Assembly (NCBI RefSeq): GCF_001553115.1 | Contig: NZ_KQ960182.1 | Location: 62,001 to 126,000, forward strand | Length of the DNA stretch: 64,000 nucleotides | Direction of reading: 5' to 3' | DNA from: Aedoeadaptatus coxii | Lineage (GTDB): Bacteria > Bacillota > Clostridia > Tissierellales > Peptoniphilaceae | Shown here: piece by piece, positions 20,019-62,675 of the stretch | Layout: each line of letters starts with the position of its first letter | How positions within the stretch are numbered: the stretch's first letter is position 1 | Translations under genes and position numbers: made by a program | The notes under the pieces: model-generated | Seen by the model: the letters and a program-made list of their open reading frames with translations, nothing else | The model's database searches: none | Told to the model about the DNA's origin: nothing

Positions 20019-21560
20019 TTATTTTGCGTACTCGATGGCGCGCGTTTCGCGGATAACATTGACTTTGATTTGACCGGGGAAATCCAATTGTGATTCGATT
20101 TCCTGCGCGATCTTTCGAGCCGTCGTTACCATATGCGCCTCATCCACTTCGCCGGGTTTTACAATAATACGTAATTCTCTACCGGCCTGTACGGCGTAGG
20201 ATTTTTCAATGCCCTCAAAGTTTTCGGCAATGGCTTCTAATTGCTCTAAGCGCTTAATGTAGGTTTCGATTGTTTCTCTACGAGCGCCCGGACGCGCCGC
20301 ACTGATGGCGTCGGCAGCCTGTACGAGTATAGCCTCTAAATTGGCAAACTCTACGTCGCCGTGGTGAGCTTCGATGCCGTTAATAACAGCTTCAGGCTCT
20401 TTGTACCGTCGCGCCAACTCGACACCGAGTTCTACGTGAGGGCCTTCTACTTCATGATCTATGGATTTTCCTAAATCGTGAAGTAAACCGGCACGTCTTG
20501 CTAATTTTGAATCGACTCCCACTTCTTCAGCCAGATAACCGGCGATTTTCGATACTTCGATGGAATGTCTCAAGCAGTTTTGTCCGAAACTTGTACGGAA
20601 TTTCAAACGGCCTAAGTATTTCACAAGTTCAGGATGTAAACCGTGAACACCGGCTTCAAATGCAGCTTCTTCGCCGCTTTCCTTAATAATATCGTCGACT
20701 TCTTGTCGCGCTTTTTCAACGGTATCTTCGATACGCGTTGGGTGAATACGACCGTCTAAAACGAGCTTTTCAAGGGCCAGTCGCGCAATTTCCCGTCGGA
20801 TGGGATTAAAGGAAGAAACGACCACTGCTTCCGGCGTGTCGTCGATGATTAAATCGACGCCGGTTAAAGATTCGATAGCACGAATATTGCGTCCTTCTCG
20901 ACCGATAATGCGCCCCTTCATTTCTTCATTGGGAAGGGACACGACAGAAACCGTAGCCTCCGCTACCTGATCGGCGGCAAGACGTTGAATAGAATGCACG
21001 ATGATATCTTGAGCAATCTTTTTACTATCGTCTTTGATTTGGCGTTCAAATTCGCGAATTTTAATAGCCGATTCCTGAGTGAGTTCGCTGTCCAGCTGAT
21101 TTAAAAGAATCTGCTTAGCTTCATCCTTTGATAATCCCGAAATTCGTTGAATCTCTTCCGATTTCTTTTCGATGAGCGCATCGACTGAATCTTCTTTTTC
21201 TTGAATACGTTCTTGTTGTTCAAGAATCTGAGCTTCCTTCTTTTCGAGGGTTGCACTTTTGGATTGAAGAAGATCTTCTTTCGAAATCAAGCGGTCTTCA
21301 AAACGCTGAAGTTCCGACTTTCGAGCATCATTTTCCTGTTGTACCGTGTCTCTTAGCTTATGAATTTCTTCTTTCGCTTGGAATAAAATATCCCGTTTAT
21401 TGTTTTCTGCATCTCGTTCCGCATCAATGATGATATTCTTGGCTAATTCTTCTGCATGCTTCAGTTTACCTTCTGCTATGTTACGACGAATAAAATAACC
21501 AATTGCTACTCCGAGGATTCCAATAAACAATGCCACAATGATTAAAATGTATGCTGGCAA
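20019..21560 (-). CDS. rny: Ribonuclease Y
   Basis: A membrane-anchored endoribonuclease that starts mRNA decay. An N-terminal helix (about residues 1-22), a long charged coiled coil, a KH domain ([15 protein letters not shown]), and an HD domain ([12 protein letters not shown] with later EAHHGDVEF) are in the usual order. I favour TTG at 21560, which has AGGAGG 8 bases ahead and gives 513 residues; a GTG at 21569 overlaps that ribosome site. It has its own promoter after the split SbcC genes. The recA-rny neighbourhood is common in Firmicutes, here with four extra genes in between. Confidence 0.95.
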
Positions 21561-21615
21561 ATGGAACACCTCCTATTCAATTTTCAAGTTTCAAATGGTA
21601 AAAAACCACGTATTC

Positions 21616-21649: not shown

Positions 21650-22318
21650 TTAACCAATGCTGTCACTTTCATCATTTATGATGGCTCTAACAGAGCTTTT
21701 ACCGTTACGAATGTCTACGCGAAAACCTTTGTCACAAATATTCGTAAGATAATCGTCGTGGGTCACCATAATAATTTGACGATTAAATAAGCGGGAACAT
21801 TCTTTTAAAAATTCGCCCATATTAAAAATATAATCATTGCTAATGTGTTTGCCCGGTTCATCTAAAAAGAGAGGGCCTTCGATTTTAGGACGATGATTTT
21901 CTAAAAAAGCGATGCGAAGGGCTAGAGAGACGATGTCTACCACCCCTCCCCCTCTACTCTGTTCGGGTTTTGTTTTGACACTGTAATCGCCATAGTCCGA
22001 TTCCACGTAGAATTCGGCAATGGGAAGGTCGCGCTTTTCCAAAAGATCGACGGTGAACTTTGAACTGTTTTGCATTATATAGGCGATGGACTGGGTTACA
22101 ATATCTTCAATTTGGCGTTTGGCTTGTGTCCTCGAATAATCTGCCGCCTTTTGAAGAAGAATAACCACGCCGTTTAAAAGTTTTTCTTTTGTTTCGATCG
22201 CTTTTAAAGAGGCCTCCTGTTTTCTTAGATTGTCGCGAATGAGATCGCGACGTGCCTCTTCCTGATCCACAGTTTTAGAAAATGTTTGAAGACGATCTTC
22301 AAATTCTTGAATAATCAT
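21650..22318 (-). CDS. Rad50/SbcC-like C-terminal ATPase lobe (separate protein)
   Basis: 222 residues corresponding only to the C-terminal half of an SMC-type ATPase. A coiled-coil start (about 1-95) leads to a signature-like SRGGGVVDIVSLALRIA (from 121), Walker B with catalytic acid in PLFLDEPGKH (149-158) and a switch histidine in MVTHDDY (184-190). It has no Walker A; that lies in the protein at 22555-23994. Together they would form one ATPase, with ATP bound between lobes. The ATG overlaps the stop of the 79-residue gene by 4 bases. The signature SRGGG differs from the usual SGGE. A paired role with the upstream Mre11-like nuclease is inferred from order. Confidence 0.78.
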   Translation of the reverse strand: MIIQEFEDRLQTFSKTVDQEEARRDLIRDNLRKQEASLKAIETKEKLLNGVVILLQKAADYSRTQAKRQIEDIVTQSIAYIMQNSSKFTVDLLEKRDLPIAEFYVESDYGDYSVKTKPEQSRGGGVVDIVSLALRIAFLENHRPKIEGPLFLDEPGKHISNDYIFNMGEFLKECSRLFNRQIIMVTHDDYLTNICDKGFRVDIRNGKSSVRAIINDESDSIG

Positions 22319-22554
22319 GAACGTTCCTCGGGAAGCAGACGTTCCGCTTCACTTAATAAATCTTGAATTTCCTTTTCGATTTTTTGAATTTCCGCTTCGA
22401 GAGAATCCGGGTCTAAACCCAATGCCTTGATCTTTTCATTGAGTTCCTTTTCTTCTTTTTCAAGCTCTTCCATACGCCATTCCGCACGTTTACGAGTGTC
22501 TTTTGCTCGTTCATAGCGGCGATTTAATTCATTAATTTGTTGTTCAAGATTCAT
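22315..22554 (-). CDS. Small coiled-coil protein between the two SbcC-like halves
   Basis: 79 residues, nearly all heptad-like and highly charged (EQQINELNRRYERAKDTR near the start, SLEAEIQKIEKEIQDLL near the end), broken by a GLDPDS turn around residue 46. It looks like a piece of coiled-coil arm. Its ATG is the very next codon after the TAA of the upstream gene, in the same frame, and GGAGG lies 5 bases before it, so it can be initiated on its own. I recognise no named family; it may bridge the two ATPase halves. Confidence 0.65.
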   Translation of the reverse strand: MNLEQQINELNRRYERAKDTRKRAEWRMEELEKEEKELNEKIKALGLDPDSLEAEIQKIEKEIQDLLSEAERLLPEERS

Positions 22555-23994
22555 TTAGTCCTCCAAACTTTTCTTAATGGCTGTGAGATGCTCTTCGTCG
22601 ATGGGCTGCCTGCAGAGCGGACAAGTGCCTGCTCGGGAGAGCGCAGACATATATTCATCCAACGCATTTTGTGTTTGTGTTTGCGCCTCAGTAAGTACCT
22701 TTTTACAATTATCCTGTTCTATCGAAAGCTCTTTCCAAGAAGCTAAAACAACGTTAAAGATTTTAATATTCTCTTTTTCTTTCTCGGATTGAACTAAAAT
22801 TTCGCCAACTCTGTCAATTGATTTAAATTGATTCATAAATTCACGACCCCGTCGAAGGCGATCTTGAAGTTCTCGATAGTTGCGAAGTATTTCTTGGCGC
22901 TCTTTAAATATTGCAAAGTTAGCGAGGAGTTCCTCCCCACGATATTCATCAATAGAGGATAGACGATTTAAAGTATTTTTCGTAGTATTTAAATCGTCAC
23001 GCAAACGCTGATAAGCATGGTGTAAGGGTTGAATCGTCGTTAAACGCTCGTTGTTTAGGTATAGAGAACGGAACAGTTCATCGAGTGTTGCGCCGTCGCC
23101 CAATTGTCCGATAAGATTCTTAGTATCCGCATGTTCTCGACGATTTTGGATGTAGCTATCCATTAGCAAACGATCTTGAGTGTAACGCCGCGCCTTAGAT
23201 TCCAACAAAAGCAGTTGTTCTTTTATGGCGTCGAGATGATCGTATTCCCTCAACACTGAAACGACCTTACCTCGTTCGTCTTTTATGTTTTGAAACCGCT
23301 GCATATGTCTCTTGGCTTCCTCTAAACGGTTTTGCATAGTCTTTAATTTATGCAAATAGGCGTTCAGCTTCTCGCGGCGATTTAATTTTTCGTCGAGGCT
23401 GTGAAACACTTCGAGGGATTTTTCTGTTTGCTCTATCTCCGATTCTATAAGGTCTTTTTGAGTCGATAATTGTTTTTTATCGCGAAGGGTATTGCGCATG
23501 GCTTCGTCTAAAACGTCCACTCCGACCATGCGTCCGATGGCCTGTGCTTTGTAAGCATCGGTTTCCTGGAGTAAAAAAGGTCCTTCCAACTGATCGGAAA
23601 AATTCAGGGGAAGAGATTTTTTATCGTCGAGCATCACTTTATAGATGCCGGTGACCTCGCGAATTTCCTGAGGAACGTAAGTACCGAATCCCTCGAAGAT
23701 AACTTCCTCTTCATCCGGTTCTCTCAAAATATATTGATTTTTAGATTTGCTTCTCAGCCGAACAATTTCCACGCGATCTTGGAAGCGAATGGTAACCGAT
23801 ACTTCGCTCTCCCCTTCCCGAACGAAATCCACACCGGAAGGTTCGTTGAACAGATTCCAGCGTAAAGCGCGCATAATGGCGGTTTTACCGCTGTCGGAAG
23901 GGCCGACGATAACATTGACGCCGCGGGATAAATCGAGCTCGGTATAGTCGTGGGATTGAAAATTTTTTAGGATAATTTTTTCAATATACTTCAC
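22555..23994 (-). CDS. Rad50/SbcC-like N-terminal half with zinc hook
   Basis: 479 residues opening with IILKNFQSHDYTELDL and Walker A VGPSDSGKT (30-38), as in SbcC/Rad50. A coiled-coil arm of nearly 300 residues (about 170-455) ends in a CPLC hook (cysteines 458 and 461), which in Rad50 joins two arms through zinc. The protein stops 18 residues after the hook, so Walker B and the signature are missing and are supplied by the gene at 21650-22318. The start overlaps the Mre11-like gene by 4 bases. DNA-end processing with that nuclease is the likely job. Confidence 0.8.
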   Translation of the reverse strand: MKYIEKIILKNFQSHDYTELDLSRGVNVIVGPSDSGKTAIMRALRWNLFNEPSGVDFVREGESEVSVTIRFQDRVEIVRLRSKSKNQYILREPDEEEVIFEGFGTYVPQEIREVTGIYKVMLDDKKSLPLNFSDQLEGPFLLQETDAYKAQAIGRMVGVDVLDEAMRNTLRDKKQLSTQKDLIESEIEQTEKSLEVFHSLDEKLNRREKLNAYLHKLKTMQNRLEEAKRHMQRFQNIKDERGKVVSVLREYDHLDAIKEQLLLLESKARRYTQDRLLMDSYIQNRREHADTKNLIGQLGDGATLDELFRSLYLNNERLTTIQPLHHAYQRLRDDLNTTKNTLNRLSSIDEYRGEELLANFAIFKERQEILRNYRELQDRLRRGREFMNQFKSIDRVGEILVQSEKEKENIKIFNVVLASWKELSIEQDNCKKVLTEAQTQTQNALDEYMSALSRAGTCPLCRQPIDEEHLTAIKKSLED

Positions 23995-24971
23995 AGATTA
24001 CTCCTTCGCTCCTCTACATCCGCAATGCGCTTTAACGCTTCTTCCTTTATATTTTTATCCAGCTTTTCGTTTTCGGCGATATCGACGATGACGTCCAGAA
24101 AATTGATGCGATCATAGGTTCCCGTACTTTCAATGGATTCTTTAAATTCAGCGAGTTCCCTACGTTTGAATTTGTGCATTTCGATTTCCGTACGATCCAA
24201 AACCTCGTCGCCGGGTTTGGCTGATTTCAGTTCATACTCTTCAATGGTACATTGATCTTTGATAACGTCGATTAAAAGAATTTTCGGGCGACGTTTAAGT
24301 TCTGTAAGAGAATTTGAAATGCGTACCATCGCCCCGGGATTTGCGAATATTTTTCCTTCAACTTCAGTAATAGGAATGCCGTCGTGTAAATGTCCACATA
24401 ATGTTAAATCCGCTTTAGTATCGACGATATCGGAAATAGTGGTATGGGAAAACATGGCTTTGGTGCTGTCGGTCATTAAAAATCCGTGGACCAAATGAAT
24501 GGCAAAATCCGCCTTTGGATCCTTCTCCTTGACGAGATAGAGTTCGCGATTTTCCTCCCGATCGAGGCCATAAATATATGGTGAACCGCTTAGTTGAACT
24601 GTCGTTTCTCCATCTTCTAGCAATATGCTTTCGTCATTAATAATATGAATAATTCCGAGTGTATTTAATAATCCCATCATGGTCCGTGGCAAGGTGATGG
24701 GATTATGGCCGTAAATATCATGATTGCCGCTAATAGCATAAAAGGGCATTGTAAATTTTTGAAGGACGGGGATAACGTCATTCATAACCGATATGGAAAC
24801 ATCGGGACGATCAAAGAGATCGCCCCCGTGTAGAATATAGTCGGCATTCCAAGAAAGGGAAACTTCTTGAATTTCCCGAAGCTTATCCATTACCGTCTCA
24901 AAAAAATTGTCCGTCCGTGATTTCGGATTCGTGCCGCGAATATGGCTATCGGTGAAGTAGATAAATCTCAA
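23991..24971 (-). CDS. Mre11/SbcD-like metallophosphoesterase
   Basis: A 326-residue calcineurin-fold nuclease partner. All metal-site motifs are visible: FTDSHIRG (8-10 region), LHGGDLFDRP, ISGNHDIYGH, HLVHGF and CGHLHDG. A charged helical tail (about 240-326) could be the Rad50-binding part. It is shorter than typical SbcD (about 400). It starts with TTG, preceded by GAGGAGG 8 bases away, three bases after the recA stop. Order recA-mre11-rad50 points to work at DNA ends that RecA then uses; this is inference. Confidence 0.85.
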   Translation of the reverse strand: MRFIYFTDSHIRGTNPKSRTDNFFETVMDKLREIQEVSLSWNADYILHGGDLFDRPDVSISVMNDVIPVLQKFTMPFYAISGNHDIYGHNPITLPRTMMGLLNTLGIIHIINDESILLEDGETTVQLSGSPYIYGLDREENRELYLVKEKDPKADFAIHLVHGFLMTDSTKAMFSHTTISDIVDTKADLTLCGHLHDGIPITEVEGKIFANPGAMVRISNSLTELKRRPKILLIDVIKDQCTIEEYELKSAKPGDEVLDRTEIEMHKFKRRELAEFKESIESTGTYDRINFLDVIVDIAENEKLDKNIKEEALKRIADVEERRSNL

Positions 24972-24974
24972 GGA

Positions 24975-26012
24975 TTATTCCTCCTCAGACGGTCGATTAC
25001 TTGCCTCCATAGTATCTTGATCATTTTCCATATGATAATGTTGGCGAACTTTATGATCAATTTCCTCTAAAAGATCGTGATTTTCTAGTAAGAAACTTTT
25101 AGCATTTTCGCGGCCTTGGCCAAGTTTCTCATCGCCATAGCTAAACCAGGATCCCGCTTTTTCGACGATGCCCGCTTCGACGGCGGCGTCCAAAGTACTT
25201 CCTACTTTTGAAATACCGGTGCCGTACATAATATCAAATTCTGCCTTTTTAAATGGCGGTGCCACTTTGTTTTTTACGACCTTCACGCGAACGCGGTTTC
25301 CGATAATATCGTCGCCTTTTTTGATGCTGTCGATGCGACGAATATCCATACGTACTGAGGTAAAGAATTTAAGAGCTCGCCCACCGGTCGTAGTTTCCGG
25401 ATTACCGAACATGACGCCGATTTTTTCGCGAAGTTGGTTAATAAAGATAACCGACGCCTTTGACTTGCTAATGGCGCCTGTCAGCTTTCTTAAACCTTGG
25501 CTCATCAAACGCGCTTGGAGGCCCATATGACTGTCGCCCATCTCCCCTTCTATTTCGGCTTTGGGAACGAGGGCGGCTACCGAGTCGACGACGATTAAAT
25601 CGACTGCGTTGCTGCGAACCAAACTTTCTGTAATTTCAAGAGCCTGTTCTCCGGTATCCGGTTGTGAAATAATGAGGTTTTCTGTATCGACGCCTAAATT
25701 CTTGCTGTAGGTCGGATCTAAAGCATGTTCTGCGTCGATGAATGCAGCCGTTCCTCCGAGTTTTTGCGCTTCAGCAATCATATGAAGAGCCAGCGTCGTT
25801 TTACCGGAAGATTCAGGACCGTAAATTTCTAAAATGCGACCGCGTGGAATACCGCCGATACCTAATGCCACGTCTAAGCTTAAAGATCCTGTGGGAATGG
25901 ATTCCACATGTAAATTTGCATTTTCACCGAGGCGCATAATGGCGCCTTTGCCATATTCTTTTTCAATTTTAGCGATGGCGTCGTCTAACGCTCTTCTTTT
26001 ACTTTCGTCCAT
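24975..26012 (-). CDS. recA: Recombinase RecA
   Basis: DNA-dependent ATPase that forms filaments on single strands, pairs homologous DNA and activates LexA cleavage. Walker A is [12 protein letters not shown] (residues 66-73 region), Walker [13 protein letters not shown], and the DNA-binding loop region [21 protein letters not shown] is intact. The length of 345 residues is normal. Its start overlaps the end of cinA by 14 bases and I see no promoter of its own, so it should depend on the upstream ftsK promoter or one inside cinA. Confidence 0.97.
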
Positions 26013-61028: not shown

Positions 61029-62675
61029 TTACTCTACTGAAATTAAATAATAATAGATCGGCTGATCGCCGCGCATTACGTCGTAATCGAGGTCCGGATA
61101 CGCTTCATCCAATGCCGATTCCAAAGATGCGATGCCTTCATCGGCCACATCGCTTCCGGCATAAAGGGAAATAAAGCTGGAGCCCTCATCGATCATATAT
61201 TTCAATACGTCGATCGTCGTCTCCTCAATAGAGGGACCTTTGGATACGATTTTCTTACCGGAAAGGCCGATAAAATCACCTTTCTTAATCGTAATACCGT
61301 CCATTTCAGTATCGCGCACGGCGTAAGTTACTTGAGCCGTCTTAAGGTCTTCAACCGCCGCCATCATAGCTTCGATGTTATCTTTGACGGATTGATCGGG
61401 CATAAAGTGGATACAGGCGGTAATACCTTCCGGAATAGAGCGTGTCTTTAAGACAGTAACATCTTTTTCCGCAATGTCTGCCGCCGCTTCGGCGGCTAAG
61501 AATATATTGCTGTTATTGGGCAAGACGAAAATATGCTCCGCTTTAACCTTGTTAATCCCCGCTAAAATATCTTCCGTACTCGGATTCATCGTTTGGCCGC
61601 CGGTTACGAGATAATCGACGCCGACATCTTTAAAGATAGATTCAATTCCCTCGCCAGCACAAATGGATACAAAACCATAGGGCTTGAGAGGCGAAGCATC
61701 TTCATGTTTTTCTTCGGCTTGTTTTTCCTTCACTTGGTCGGCGCTAAAGAGGCGTTCCGAGTGTTGAATTCGCATATTATCGATTTTAATATCCTTCAAA
61801 AAGCCGAATTCCAAGCCGCTTTGCAGTGCTAGGCCGGGATCGTTGGTATGAACGTGAACTTTAATCATTTTATCGTCGCCGACGACGAGAAGACTGTCAC
61901 CCCGTTCTACGAGTTTCGCCTTTAAATCTTCGACGTGATCAGATTCAGTTGTGACGATAAATTCCGTGCAATAGCCGAATTTAATATTATCCGTAGATAT
62001 TTCGGAACGCACGGGAGCCCCTTTAGAAACAGTCGACTCTTCCTCGCCGATTGAGGTAACGGCCTCACCTTTTAATGCAAGGTATGCTCCTTCTAAAATC
62101 GTAACGAGACCTTGACCGCCGGCGTCCACTACTCCTGCTTCTTTAAGCACGGGCAATAAATTGGGCGTATTGCTTAGGGATTCCTTAGCGCGTGCAATGA
62201 CCGCTTCGAAAAATTCGAGAATGTCCTTATATTTTTTCGCATTTTTCATGGCGAATTCCGCACTCTCGCGTCCGACGGTTAAAATAGTACCTTCTGTCGG
62301 CTTCATAACGGCGAGATAGGTCATTTCCGAAGCTTTTTTCATTGCATAGGCAAGGGATTGGGTGTCGACCTTCTCTTTGCCCTTCAAACCTTCGGCAAAA
62401 CCGCGGAATAATTGGGAGAGAATAACCCCGCTATTCCCCCGCGCGCCCATTAAAGCGCCGCGACTCATTTCAGTCGCGACCTCATCGATCGCTTTTGCTG
62501 AAGTACTCTTTACCTGTTTAACGGCACTTTTAATGGTCATGGACATATTCGTTCCCGTATCGCCATCGGGTACGGGAAAAACATTCAGGTCATTGACTTT
62601 GGTTTTATTCTGTTCTAAATAATTCGAAGCACTATAGAGTGCTTCAATAAAATCTTCTGTTGTAATAAATTGCAT
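61029..62675 (-). CDS. fakA: Fatty acid kinase catalytic subunit (DAK2 family, FakA/YloV)
   Basis: Phosphorylates fatty acids presented by a FakB partner for entry into lipid synthesis. The N-terminal DAK2 nucleotide domain has NVFPVPDGDTGTNMSMT and GARGNSGVILSQ; the middle and C-terminal domains have YCTEFIVTTE and LPNNSNIFLAAEAAA. The length is 548 residues. No fakB is in the window. It follows asp23, the usual Firmicutes order. Confidence 0.9.
   Translation of the reverse strand: MQFITTEDFIEALYSASNYLEQNKTKVNDLNVFPVPDGDTGTNMSMTIKSAVKQVKSTSAKAIDEVATEMSRGALMGARGNSGVILSQLFRGFAEGLKGKEKVDTQSLAYAMKKASEMTYLAVMKPTEGTILTVGRESAEFAMKNAKKYKDILEFFEAVIARAKESLSNTPNLLPVLKEAGVVDAGGQGLVTILEGAYLALKGEAVTSIGEEESTVSKGAPVRSEISTDNIKFGYCTEFIVTTESDHVEDLKAKLVERGDSLLVVGDDKMIKVHVHTNDPGLALQSGLEFGFLKDIKIDNMRIQHSERLFSADQVKEKQAEEKHEDASPLKPYGFVSICAGEGIESIFKDVGVDYLVTGGQTMNPSTEDILAGINKVKAEHIFVLPNNSNIFLAAEAAADIAEKDVTVLKTRSIPEGITACIHFMPDQSVKDNIEAMMAAVEDLKTAQVTYAVRDTEMDGITIKKGDFIGLSGKKIVSKGPSIEETTIDVLKYMIDEGSSFISLYAGSDVADEGIASLESALDEAYPDLDYDVMRGDQPIYYYLISVE

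Follow-up and report, generated by a model that had tools for sequence, protein, structure and literature searches.

The window analysed here is a stretch of 64,000 nucleotides from the 1.84 Mb genome of Aedoeadaptatus coxii (Peptoniphilaceae, Bacillota), namely positions 62,001 to 126,000 of the forward strand of contig NZ_KQ960182.1. Between recA and rny, on the minus strand, lies a compact set of four genes, an Mre11-like nuclease followed by three genes here called N, mid and C, which the original prediction described as a Rad50/SbcC-like ATPase split over three proteins. Hereafter, numbers prefixed with G, L and C are our handles for genomes, loci and contigs. The genes at the locus, in positions of the window, are:

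23991..24971, minus strand: Mre11/SbcD-like metallophosphoesterase nuclease, 326 amino acids, TTG start (Pfam Metallophos, 7.7e-14)
22555..23994, minus strand: N, Rad50 lobe I, ascending arm and zinc-hook motif, 479 amino acids, GTG start (Pfam AAA_23, 8.4e-19)
22315..22554, minus strand: mid, helical protein of 79 amino acids, proposed piece of the descending arm (phrog_18563, 3.9e-6)
21650..22318, minus strand: C, descending-arm helix (residues 2-82) and Rad50 lobe II, 222 amino acids (phrog_15167, 1.6e-60)
24975..26012, minus strand: recA, upstream of the set (TIGR02012, 3.1e-172)
20019..21569, minus strand: rny (RNase Y), downstream border of the set (TIGR03319, 7.7e-217)

Read along the minus strand, the order is thus an open reading frame (ORF) that we take to be cinA, then recA, nuclease, N, mid, C and rny. 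The coordinates agree with the gene positions, the 3-base gap between recA and the nuclease and the 4-base overlaps of nuclease with N and of mid with C that had been noted from the sequence. The gap between N and mid is zero: the TAA of N abuts the ATG of mid, with a GGAGG just upstream.

The first of the three proteins carries the parts claimed for it, namely a Walker A motif, a coiled-coil arm and a CPLC zinc hook.

23881..23904, minus strand: Walker A GPSDSGKT, N residues 31-38 (G31, P32, D34, G36, K37 and T38 invariant in 24 N proteins)
23590..23592, minus strand: glutamine Q135 of N, within FSDQLEGPFL (invariant in 24 N proteins)
22612..22623, minus strand: CPLC zinc-hook motif, N residues 458-461, 18 residues ahead of the C-terminal end of N (C458 and C461 invariant in 24 N proteins)

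Walker A reads GPTDSGKT, GPSDQGKS or GESDQGKS at other loci, and Q135 is presumably the Q-loop glutamine; with both elements, N has the make-up of a Rad50 lobe I. Besides AAA_23, Pfam gives a sub-threshold match to the Rad50 zinc hook (4e-4), the best NCBIfam model for N is archaeal Rad50 (PRK03918, 1.8e-22, below its curated cut-off), and the phage protein family phrog_16465 matches at 8e-68. An AlphaFold2 (AF2) model places lobe I ahead of helices spanning residues 159-196, 200-250, 254-297, 302-346 and 353-455, after which comes the hook, so that the arm has a CxxC hook, with predicted zinc binding, at its tip. Foldseek finds the Rad50 chain 9a9j_A as the best match of this model (7.1e-6), and a second structural comparison aligns 173 residues of the two (Z 12.9, root-mean-square deviation (rmsd) 7.7 Å).

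The position of the hook is general. Among 132 unique N proteins with a Walker A match, drawn from chromosomes, plasmids and viral contigs (fused proteins fell outside the length limits, and the viral N set is not a random sample because it was partly found by the Walker A pattern), 129 have a CxxC within their last 45 residues, followed by only 4-28 residues; the frames of the remaining three (L162, L166, L170) run off the available sequence. A hook also lies near the end of two plasmid fusions of nuclease and N, and there is none in three one-chain fusions described below.

The third protein supplies what N lacks. The signature, Walker B and switch histidine attributed to it are all there, giving it the elements of a Rad50 lobe II.

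21944..21955, minus strand: signature RGGG, C residues 122-125 (R122, G123, G124 and G125 invariant in 14 C proteins)
21857..21865, minus strand: Walker B L-D-E, in LFLDEP, C residues 152-154 (invariant in 9 C proteins; D153 and E154 in 14)
21758..21760, minus strand: switch (H-loop) histidine H187 of C (invariant in 9 and in 14 C proteins)

The unusual signature, originally given as SRGGG, is conserved in its RGGG part, which occurs in 102 of 129 unique C proteins, and not in its serine, as the residue ahead of RGGG is A, S, D, T or Q. SGGG occurs in 10 of the 129, and the rest have another motif or none that was found. The serine signature of Rad50 (SGGE/Q type) is thus missing from C; in the alignment to Rad50 its serine falls on the first glycine of the C motif, in a register relative to LSGGE that is uncertain by one residue. 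Sequence matches of C outside its phage family are weak and include Rad50, RecN, ABC and similar proteins. Its AF2 model, of moderate confidence (predicted local distance difference test (pLDDT) 77), comprises one helix (residues 2-82) and an ABC lobe, which Foldseek matches to the C-terminal chain of Pyrococcus furiosus Rad50 (1f2u_D, 8.8e-9) and VIA to 9a9j_B (Z 12.0, rmsd 4.5 Å, 166 residues aligned).

Between the two lies mid, described beforehand as a 79-residue coil and indeed helical in character, probably two helices around an LGxDP-like turn as judged from the alignment. Its residues 1-76 align with positions 1-76 of the 77 in phrog_18563, and the PHROG families of N, mid and C (491, 77 and 211 positions) are each matched along nearly their full length. 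The order N-mid-C is kept in 39 of 39 loci compared, a set chosen from strong C matches with three fused loci left out of the count. Given these family matches (8e-68, 3.9e-6 and 1.6e-60) and this constant order, the set lies far beyond chance. In addition, mid is under strong purifying selection: in all five pairwise comparisons made among five genomes it differs little at non-synonymous sites. Relative to locus L009 the proportions of non-synonymous and synonymous differences (pN, pS) of mid are 0.042 and 0.72, compared with 0.182 for N and 0.069 for C; many of the other comparisons are saturated at synonymous sites.

The adjacent gene was correctly recognised as an Mre11-like nuclease. In NCBIfam its best match is Mre11_Sulfo (8e-9), with SbcD at 1.2e-5 and all matches below their curated cut-offs, and it retains the metal-binding motifs DSH, GDLFD, GNHD and GHLH. 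An Mre11-type protein with catalytic motifs is therefore encoded next to N, and its partnership with the ATPase is read from the genes.

To place the set in its genomic context, we counted as split genomes those with a match to the C profile above 100 bits, as tallies at E ≤ 1e-5 (120/130 and 196/398) include RecN and ABC proteins. Of 130 genomes from the window's family, 68 have the split set (a count that includes the interrupted frames of G087 and G125 and the two cut pieces of G061), as do 65 of 398 across the phylum, three of these 65 in fused form. Within the phylum sample, 29 of the 65 have the order HerA-nuclease-N-mid-C and 24, the window included, have the set at recA; three have it beside RecD2 (confirmed by Pfam in two), three are fused beside addB, four showed none of these neighbours and two are fragments. 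Thus the two lobes are encoded by separate genes in the compared loci, excepting the three fused loci and the fragments. Across the 39 loci compared for gene order, recA lies upstream of the nuclease in 31, at gaps from -50 to 744 bases, and in the window's own genus the set stands beside recA in all eight loci whose surroundings could be seen (window, L009, L010, L088-L092).

The HerA-like gene of those 29 genomes lies directly ahead of the nuclease; DUF87 was confirmed in five of them, and the others were called by similarity to one of these. These counts cover bacterial genomes only. In all 11 of the HerA-type loci checked (L269-L279) NurA is found upstream of HerA, about 1.6 kb off in one, and, conversely, a HerA-like ORF lies downstream of NurA in 10 of 10 genomes of the recA type (L281-L290), the window's included. 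NurA (PF09376) is found in 53 of 65 split and 18 of 333 other genomes of the phylum sample (p = 1.7e-38), and in 68 of 68 split and 3 of 62 other genomes of the family (p = 6.9e-34; by genus, 24/24 and 1/15). The three family genomes with NurA and without the set, G063, G076 and G083, are 76, 81 and 65% complete. Sixteen of the 18 NurA-positive genomes of the phylum that lack the set have an SbcC-type match, and in the two of the 18 that were examined (L291, L292) the HerA match is only 43-44 bits, with NurA out of reach of two queries. In the five family genomes whose positions were compared (G000, G109, G114, G121, G129) NurA and the split set lie on different contigs or about 45 kb and more apart; in the window's own genome contig C30 carries NurA and, some 3 kb along, the HerA-like gene, the two separated by an ORF with S-layer domains. 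We regard this sharing of presence and absence, without adjacency, as strong evidence that these genes act in one pathway.

Genomes with the split set also rarely encode a protein of the SbcC type, here meaning a match to TIGR00618 at E ≤ 1e-10, mostly in frames of about 900-1200 amino acids. In the family such proteins occur in 3 of 68 split and 42 of 62 other genomes (p = 2.9e-15), and in the phylum sample in 4 of 65 and 173 of 333 (p = 2.3e-13). By genus, 2 family genera have both, 22 the split set only, 8 SbcC only and 7 neither (p = 0.003). The first scans scored five candidates per genome for the family and two for the phylum, which could hide an SbcC; a repeat on the split genomes with ten candidates each again gave 4 of 65 for the phylum and at most 4 of 68 for the family, the extra match, in G128, being weak (41.8 bits) and in a 1189-residue frame that is perhaps an SMC protein. 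Of the genomes with both, G305 and G510 owe the SbcC-type label to weak matches alone, the frames being 650 and 666 amino acids long, and G059 was counted as both. The window's genome has no TIGR00618 match at E ≤ 1e-10 among the candidates scored (5, then 10, of 34). The split set stands in for SbcC-type proteins, in near exclusion of them.

The set recurs well beyond these genomes: it is found in numerous families of Bacillota as well as on plasmids and in phages. C matches nine plasmid records, and the four examined (Bacillus, Paenibacillus, Alkaliphilus and Geobacillus) include two in which nuclease and N are fused. It also matches five phage records, from phages of Bacillus (two, of one phage), Microbacterium and Microcystis and from a 485-kb phage, together with many viral contigs.

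Taken together, these observations make it likely that N, mid and C are three pieces of one Rad50, divided at the hook and belonging to a bacterial nurA-herA-mre11-rad50 resection system. The original proposal that the three proteins together hold the parts of one SMC-type ATPase is supported by profile, motif and fold, with Rad50 closest by sequence; the profile searches it suggested returned archaeal Rad50 models and PHROG families among their matches. The fold alone does not separate Rad50 from SMC, since cohesin and SMC chains score alike, and sequence and genomic company decide.

Several observations weigh against this assignment. Structures were predicted for N and C singly; the model of N is weak overall (pLDDT 75, predicted template modelling score 0.32), a cohesin chain ranks first for it (Z 13.4, tied with 9a9j_A), residues 113-122 of the C model, up to the signature, have pLDDT below 50, and an SMC chain comes within 1 of the top Z score for C. 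The D-loop position of C reads HIS where Rad50 reads YLD, and, as the signature serine is not conserved either, ATPase behaviour may differ from that of Rad50. The two arms differ in length, and changes in the length of the ascending arm are not matched in mid or C. The family matches of mid are weak evidence of a shared role because mid is coil-like. In Microbacterium phage Magritte about 93 kb of the map separate N from C. As to the company of the set, the HerA matches are to DUF87 and far below the HerA equivalog cut-offs, NurA has no match in 12 of the 65 split genomes of the phylum sample, all counts other than the genus tables treat genomes as independent, and SbcC-type is our own label, as no TIGR00618 match in the samples reaches the curated cut-off.

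Other readings of the same genes must be weighed. N and C might be two ABC-type subunits of a heterodimer with another function, such as chromosome segregation or a defence effector; some of the phage and plasmid copies do go by the name ParA or chromosome segregation protein in public records, and N matches defence ATPases, for example LmuB at 3.9e-17. Neither chain is a complete ATPase, as Walker B is missing from N and Walker A from C; moreover, the structural match of N is to chain A of Rad50 and that of C to chain B, the genes keep company with an Mre11-like nuclease, recA, HerA-NurA and addB (with recA in every same-genus locus seen), and proteins exist in which the nuclease is fused with both halves, all of which make the heterodimer quite unlikely. 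A defence system was itself considered and rejected, the matches being only of a broad AAA type. An origin as SbcC proper, derived from the SbcCD of the same bacteria and split in this lineage, would account for the nearly mutually exclusive occurrence of SbcC-type proteins in other genera of the family. The likeness to SbcCD that was first remarked on holds in so far as an SbcC-like PHROG family matches N (8e-14) and an SbcD-like one the nuclease (1.7e-10), and fails in that the closest NCBIfam models are archaeal Rad50 and Mre11 and the partners HerA and NurA. With archaeal Rad50 best for N and no SbcC model among its 12 NCBIfam matches to E 1, no TIGR00618 match in the window's genome at the threshold given above, synteny with HerA-NurA, and an occurrence of the split form that extends to distant families, to plasmids and to phages, we consider a divided SbcC improbable.

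That a one-piece gene has recently decayed, or was broken by sequencing error, is suggested by the shared frame of N and mid in the window, where a single stop codon parts them. Relatives refute it: the one uninterrupted ATPase gene that would betray such an error did not turn up, the relatives examined keeping the split, and phages and many families share the position of the cut. Mid has a ribosome-binding site ahead of it, its frame relative to N changes among relatives, and the strong purifying selection on mid, with the ending of 129 of 132 N proteins 4-28 residues past CxxC, speaks against decay; the genuine frame breaks at L077 and L085 also look different. We therefore hold this explanation to be exceedingly improbable. 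Readthrough of the N stop codon into mid was likewise rejected: the gap between them is 0, 1, 2, 3, 5 or 11 and more bases, or an overlap, among relatives, and since it varies no fixed frame is kept.

The following account of a Rad50 divided at the hook is inferred, as regards how and in what numbers the parts assemble, the binding of zinc, the activities as ATPase and nuclease, and the sequence of events. Lobe I would come from N, together with the ascending arm and its CPxC hook; mid would form the returning arm jointly with the N-terminal helix of C, and C would also supply lobe II. Two such assemblies and two copies of the nuclease encoded upstream would form an Mre11-Rad50 complex that binds a DNA end, where ATP binding would clamp the heads together with the signature of C against the Walker A of the other N. 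After trimming by the nuclease, further resection of the end would fall to HerA-NurA, whose genes are on another contig in this genome, and the resulting single strand would pass to RecA, whose gene lies three bases upstream of the set. Tentatively, the cut at the hook could itself be functional, giving a non-covalently closed Mre11-Rad50 ring whose returning arm, made of mid and C, leaves and rejoins; we give this possibility somewhat less than even weight. If it is true, a zinc hook between two N proteins could tie two complexes together while the heads open by exchange of C, subunit exchange would load and release DNA and switch the ATPase in ways beyond a one-piece Rad50, and the one-chain relatives that lack the arm, like the variants in arm length, would mark stages in one free evolution of this part.

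The closest known system is archaeal Mre11-Rad50 with HerA-NurA, which shares the two-lobed head, the hooked arm, the Mre11-like partner and the linkage to HerA and NurA. In contrast to it, the present Rad50 comprises three proteins, has an RGGG in place of an SGGE-type signature and has unequal arms, and in the window the set lies at recA and away from nurA-herA. It has been stated that archaeal herA and nurA usually share an operon with mre11 and rad50, with which they cooperate in resection, and that homologues of NurA and HerA occur in Firmicutes and other bacteria, with Deinococcus named there as the only one studied (PMC8708640). Bacterial SbcCD pairs the same kinds of protein, a nuclease and an ABC ATPase, and differs in that the split set of the window's genome is not recognised by TIGR00618; SbcC and SbcD appear as a co-occurring pair in a survey of bacterial recombination genes (PMC1193525). 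Yoshida et al. (2011) described nuclease-Rad50 fusions on plasmids and phages, two of them without one ATPase segment, in which the nuclease is fused to parts of Rad50, and the portion of that paper at hand names no separate partner with the missing half (PMC3175470). Those two fusions may be of the present type.

PHROG families 16465, 18563 and 15167 correspond to the phage forms of N, mid and C and are described apart, as exonuclease, unknown function and ATPase, with no stated link. The P. furiosus Rad50 head (1f2u, 9a9j) likewise builds one head from two chains, and N and C match its N-terminal and C-terminal chains. That two-chain division is reportedly engineered, unlike the division found here, which is natural and falls at the tip of the arm. 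Searches of the open-access literature, outside which most subscription papers lie, turned up no Rad50 described as being in three parts or split at the hook.

The arm and hook of Rad50 are usually regarded as one continuous structure. Since the two arms and the two halves of the ATP site are here encoded separately, in a division that bacteria, plasmids and phages have kept, the need for a continuous arm becomes directly testable. For many Bacillota in which no SbcC-type protein was detected, the set provides a candidate ATPase for DNA-end processing. It also accounts for proteins whose present annotation is chromosome segregation, ParA or hypothetical, and it suggests that an archaeal-type HerA-NurA-Mre11-Rad50 set is common in these bacteria.

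The asymmetry of the arm predicted at the outset is clear in the models: taking boundaries from the AF2 models of N and C, about 299 residues run from the end of lobe I to the hook and about 179 return. The ascending arm (N residues 159-455, window 22630-23520) looks modular, as helices of about 45-50 residues with short breaks. In 7 of 17 aligned N proteins (L084, L086, L093, L098, L099, L102, L107) one block of about 45-47 residues is missing at the same place. Regular up-down folding of the ascending arm was considered as an explanation of the asymmetry: the AF2 breaks suggest units of about 45-50 residues, and simple zigzag folding does not fit because a single unit is lost in those seven proteins. 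At two loci (L108 5299-6186, L141 5661-6575) C has an extra N-terminal stretch of about 85-95 residues, absent from other rows of the alignment.

Three genomes encode nuclease, lobe I and lobe II in one chain of 684-700 amino acids (L068 4941-7043, L069 3492-5546, L070 4947-7034), with almost no arm and no CxxC hook, beside addB (confirmed in one, TIGR02773, 1225 bits). These relatives are armless Mre11-Rad50 proteins and rather show that the parts belong together. A second phage group (17 viral loci among L151-L188) has an N of mostly about 350 residues, the nuclease between N and C, and mostly SGGG as signature; by arithmetic its two arms would be about equal in length. A coil-like ORF of 77-96 amino acids adjoins C in 11 of these 17 loci, as judged by eye (two are identical), and gives a profile match (probability 92, E 5e-7) that, coming from a coil, is weak evidence and includes some unrelated alignment rows.

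The survey of recA-rny intervals originally proposed covered 18 family genomes without the set in which recA was found. Among these, rny follows recA by 15-50 bases in seven, resembling an empty site; of the other 11, one has rny 464 bases on, and ten have other sequence, nothing recognised or a run-out of sequence. G059 has two recA genes (L204, L223), one ahead of the nuclease and one ahead of rny, and may be a mixed assembly given these two genes and its 5% contamination. Peptoniphilus nemausensis is one of two close relatives of the window found in named collections. The frame is broken inside one gene of the set at L077 (N) and at L085 (C). In Bacillus phage vB_BboS-125 a gene with an AP2 domain (Pfam AP2 below cut-off), perhaps a homing element, lies between N and mid (L013 8116-8688).

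A second SbcCD in the window's genome was sought and rejected, as the other stronger AAA_23 matches, to which the check was confined, are SMC, RecN, a protein without NCBIfam match that we take to be OLD-like, and the larger member of a second phosphoesterase-ATPase pair of 346 and 606 amino acids (L003 520-3304, contig C22), presumably YhaO/YhaN-like. Finally, the ORF between the nurA and herA genes of the window's genome encodes 979 amino acids with S-layer homology repeats (L281 4803-7742, contig C30).

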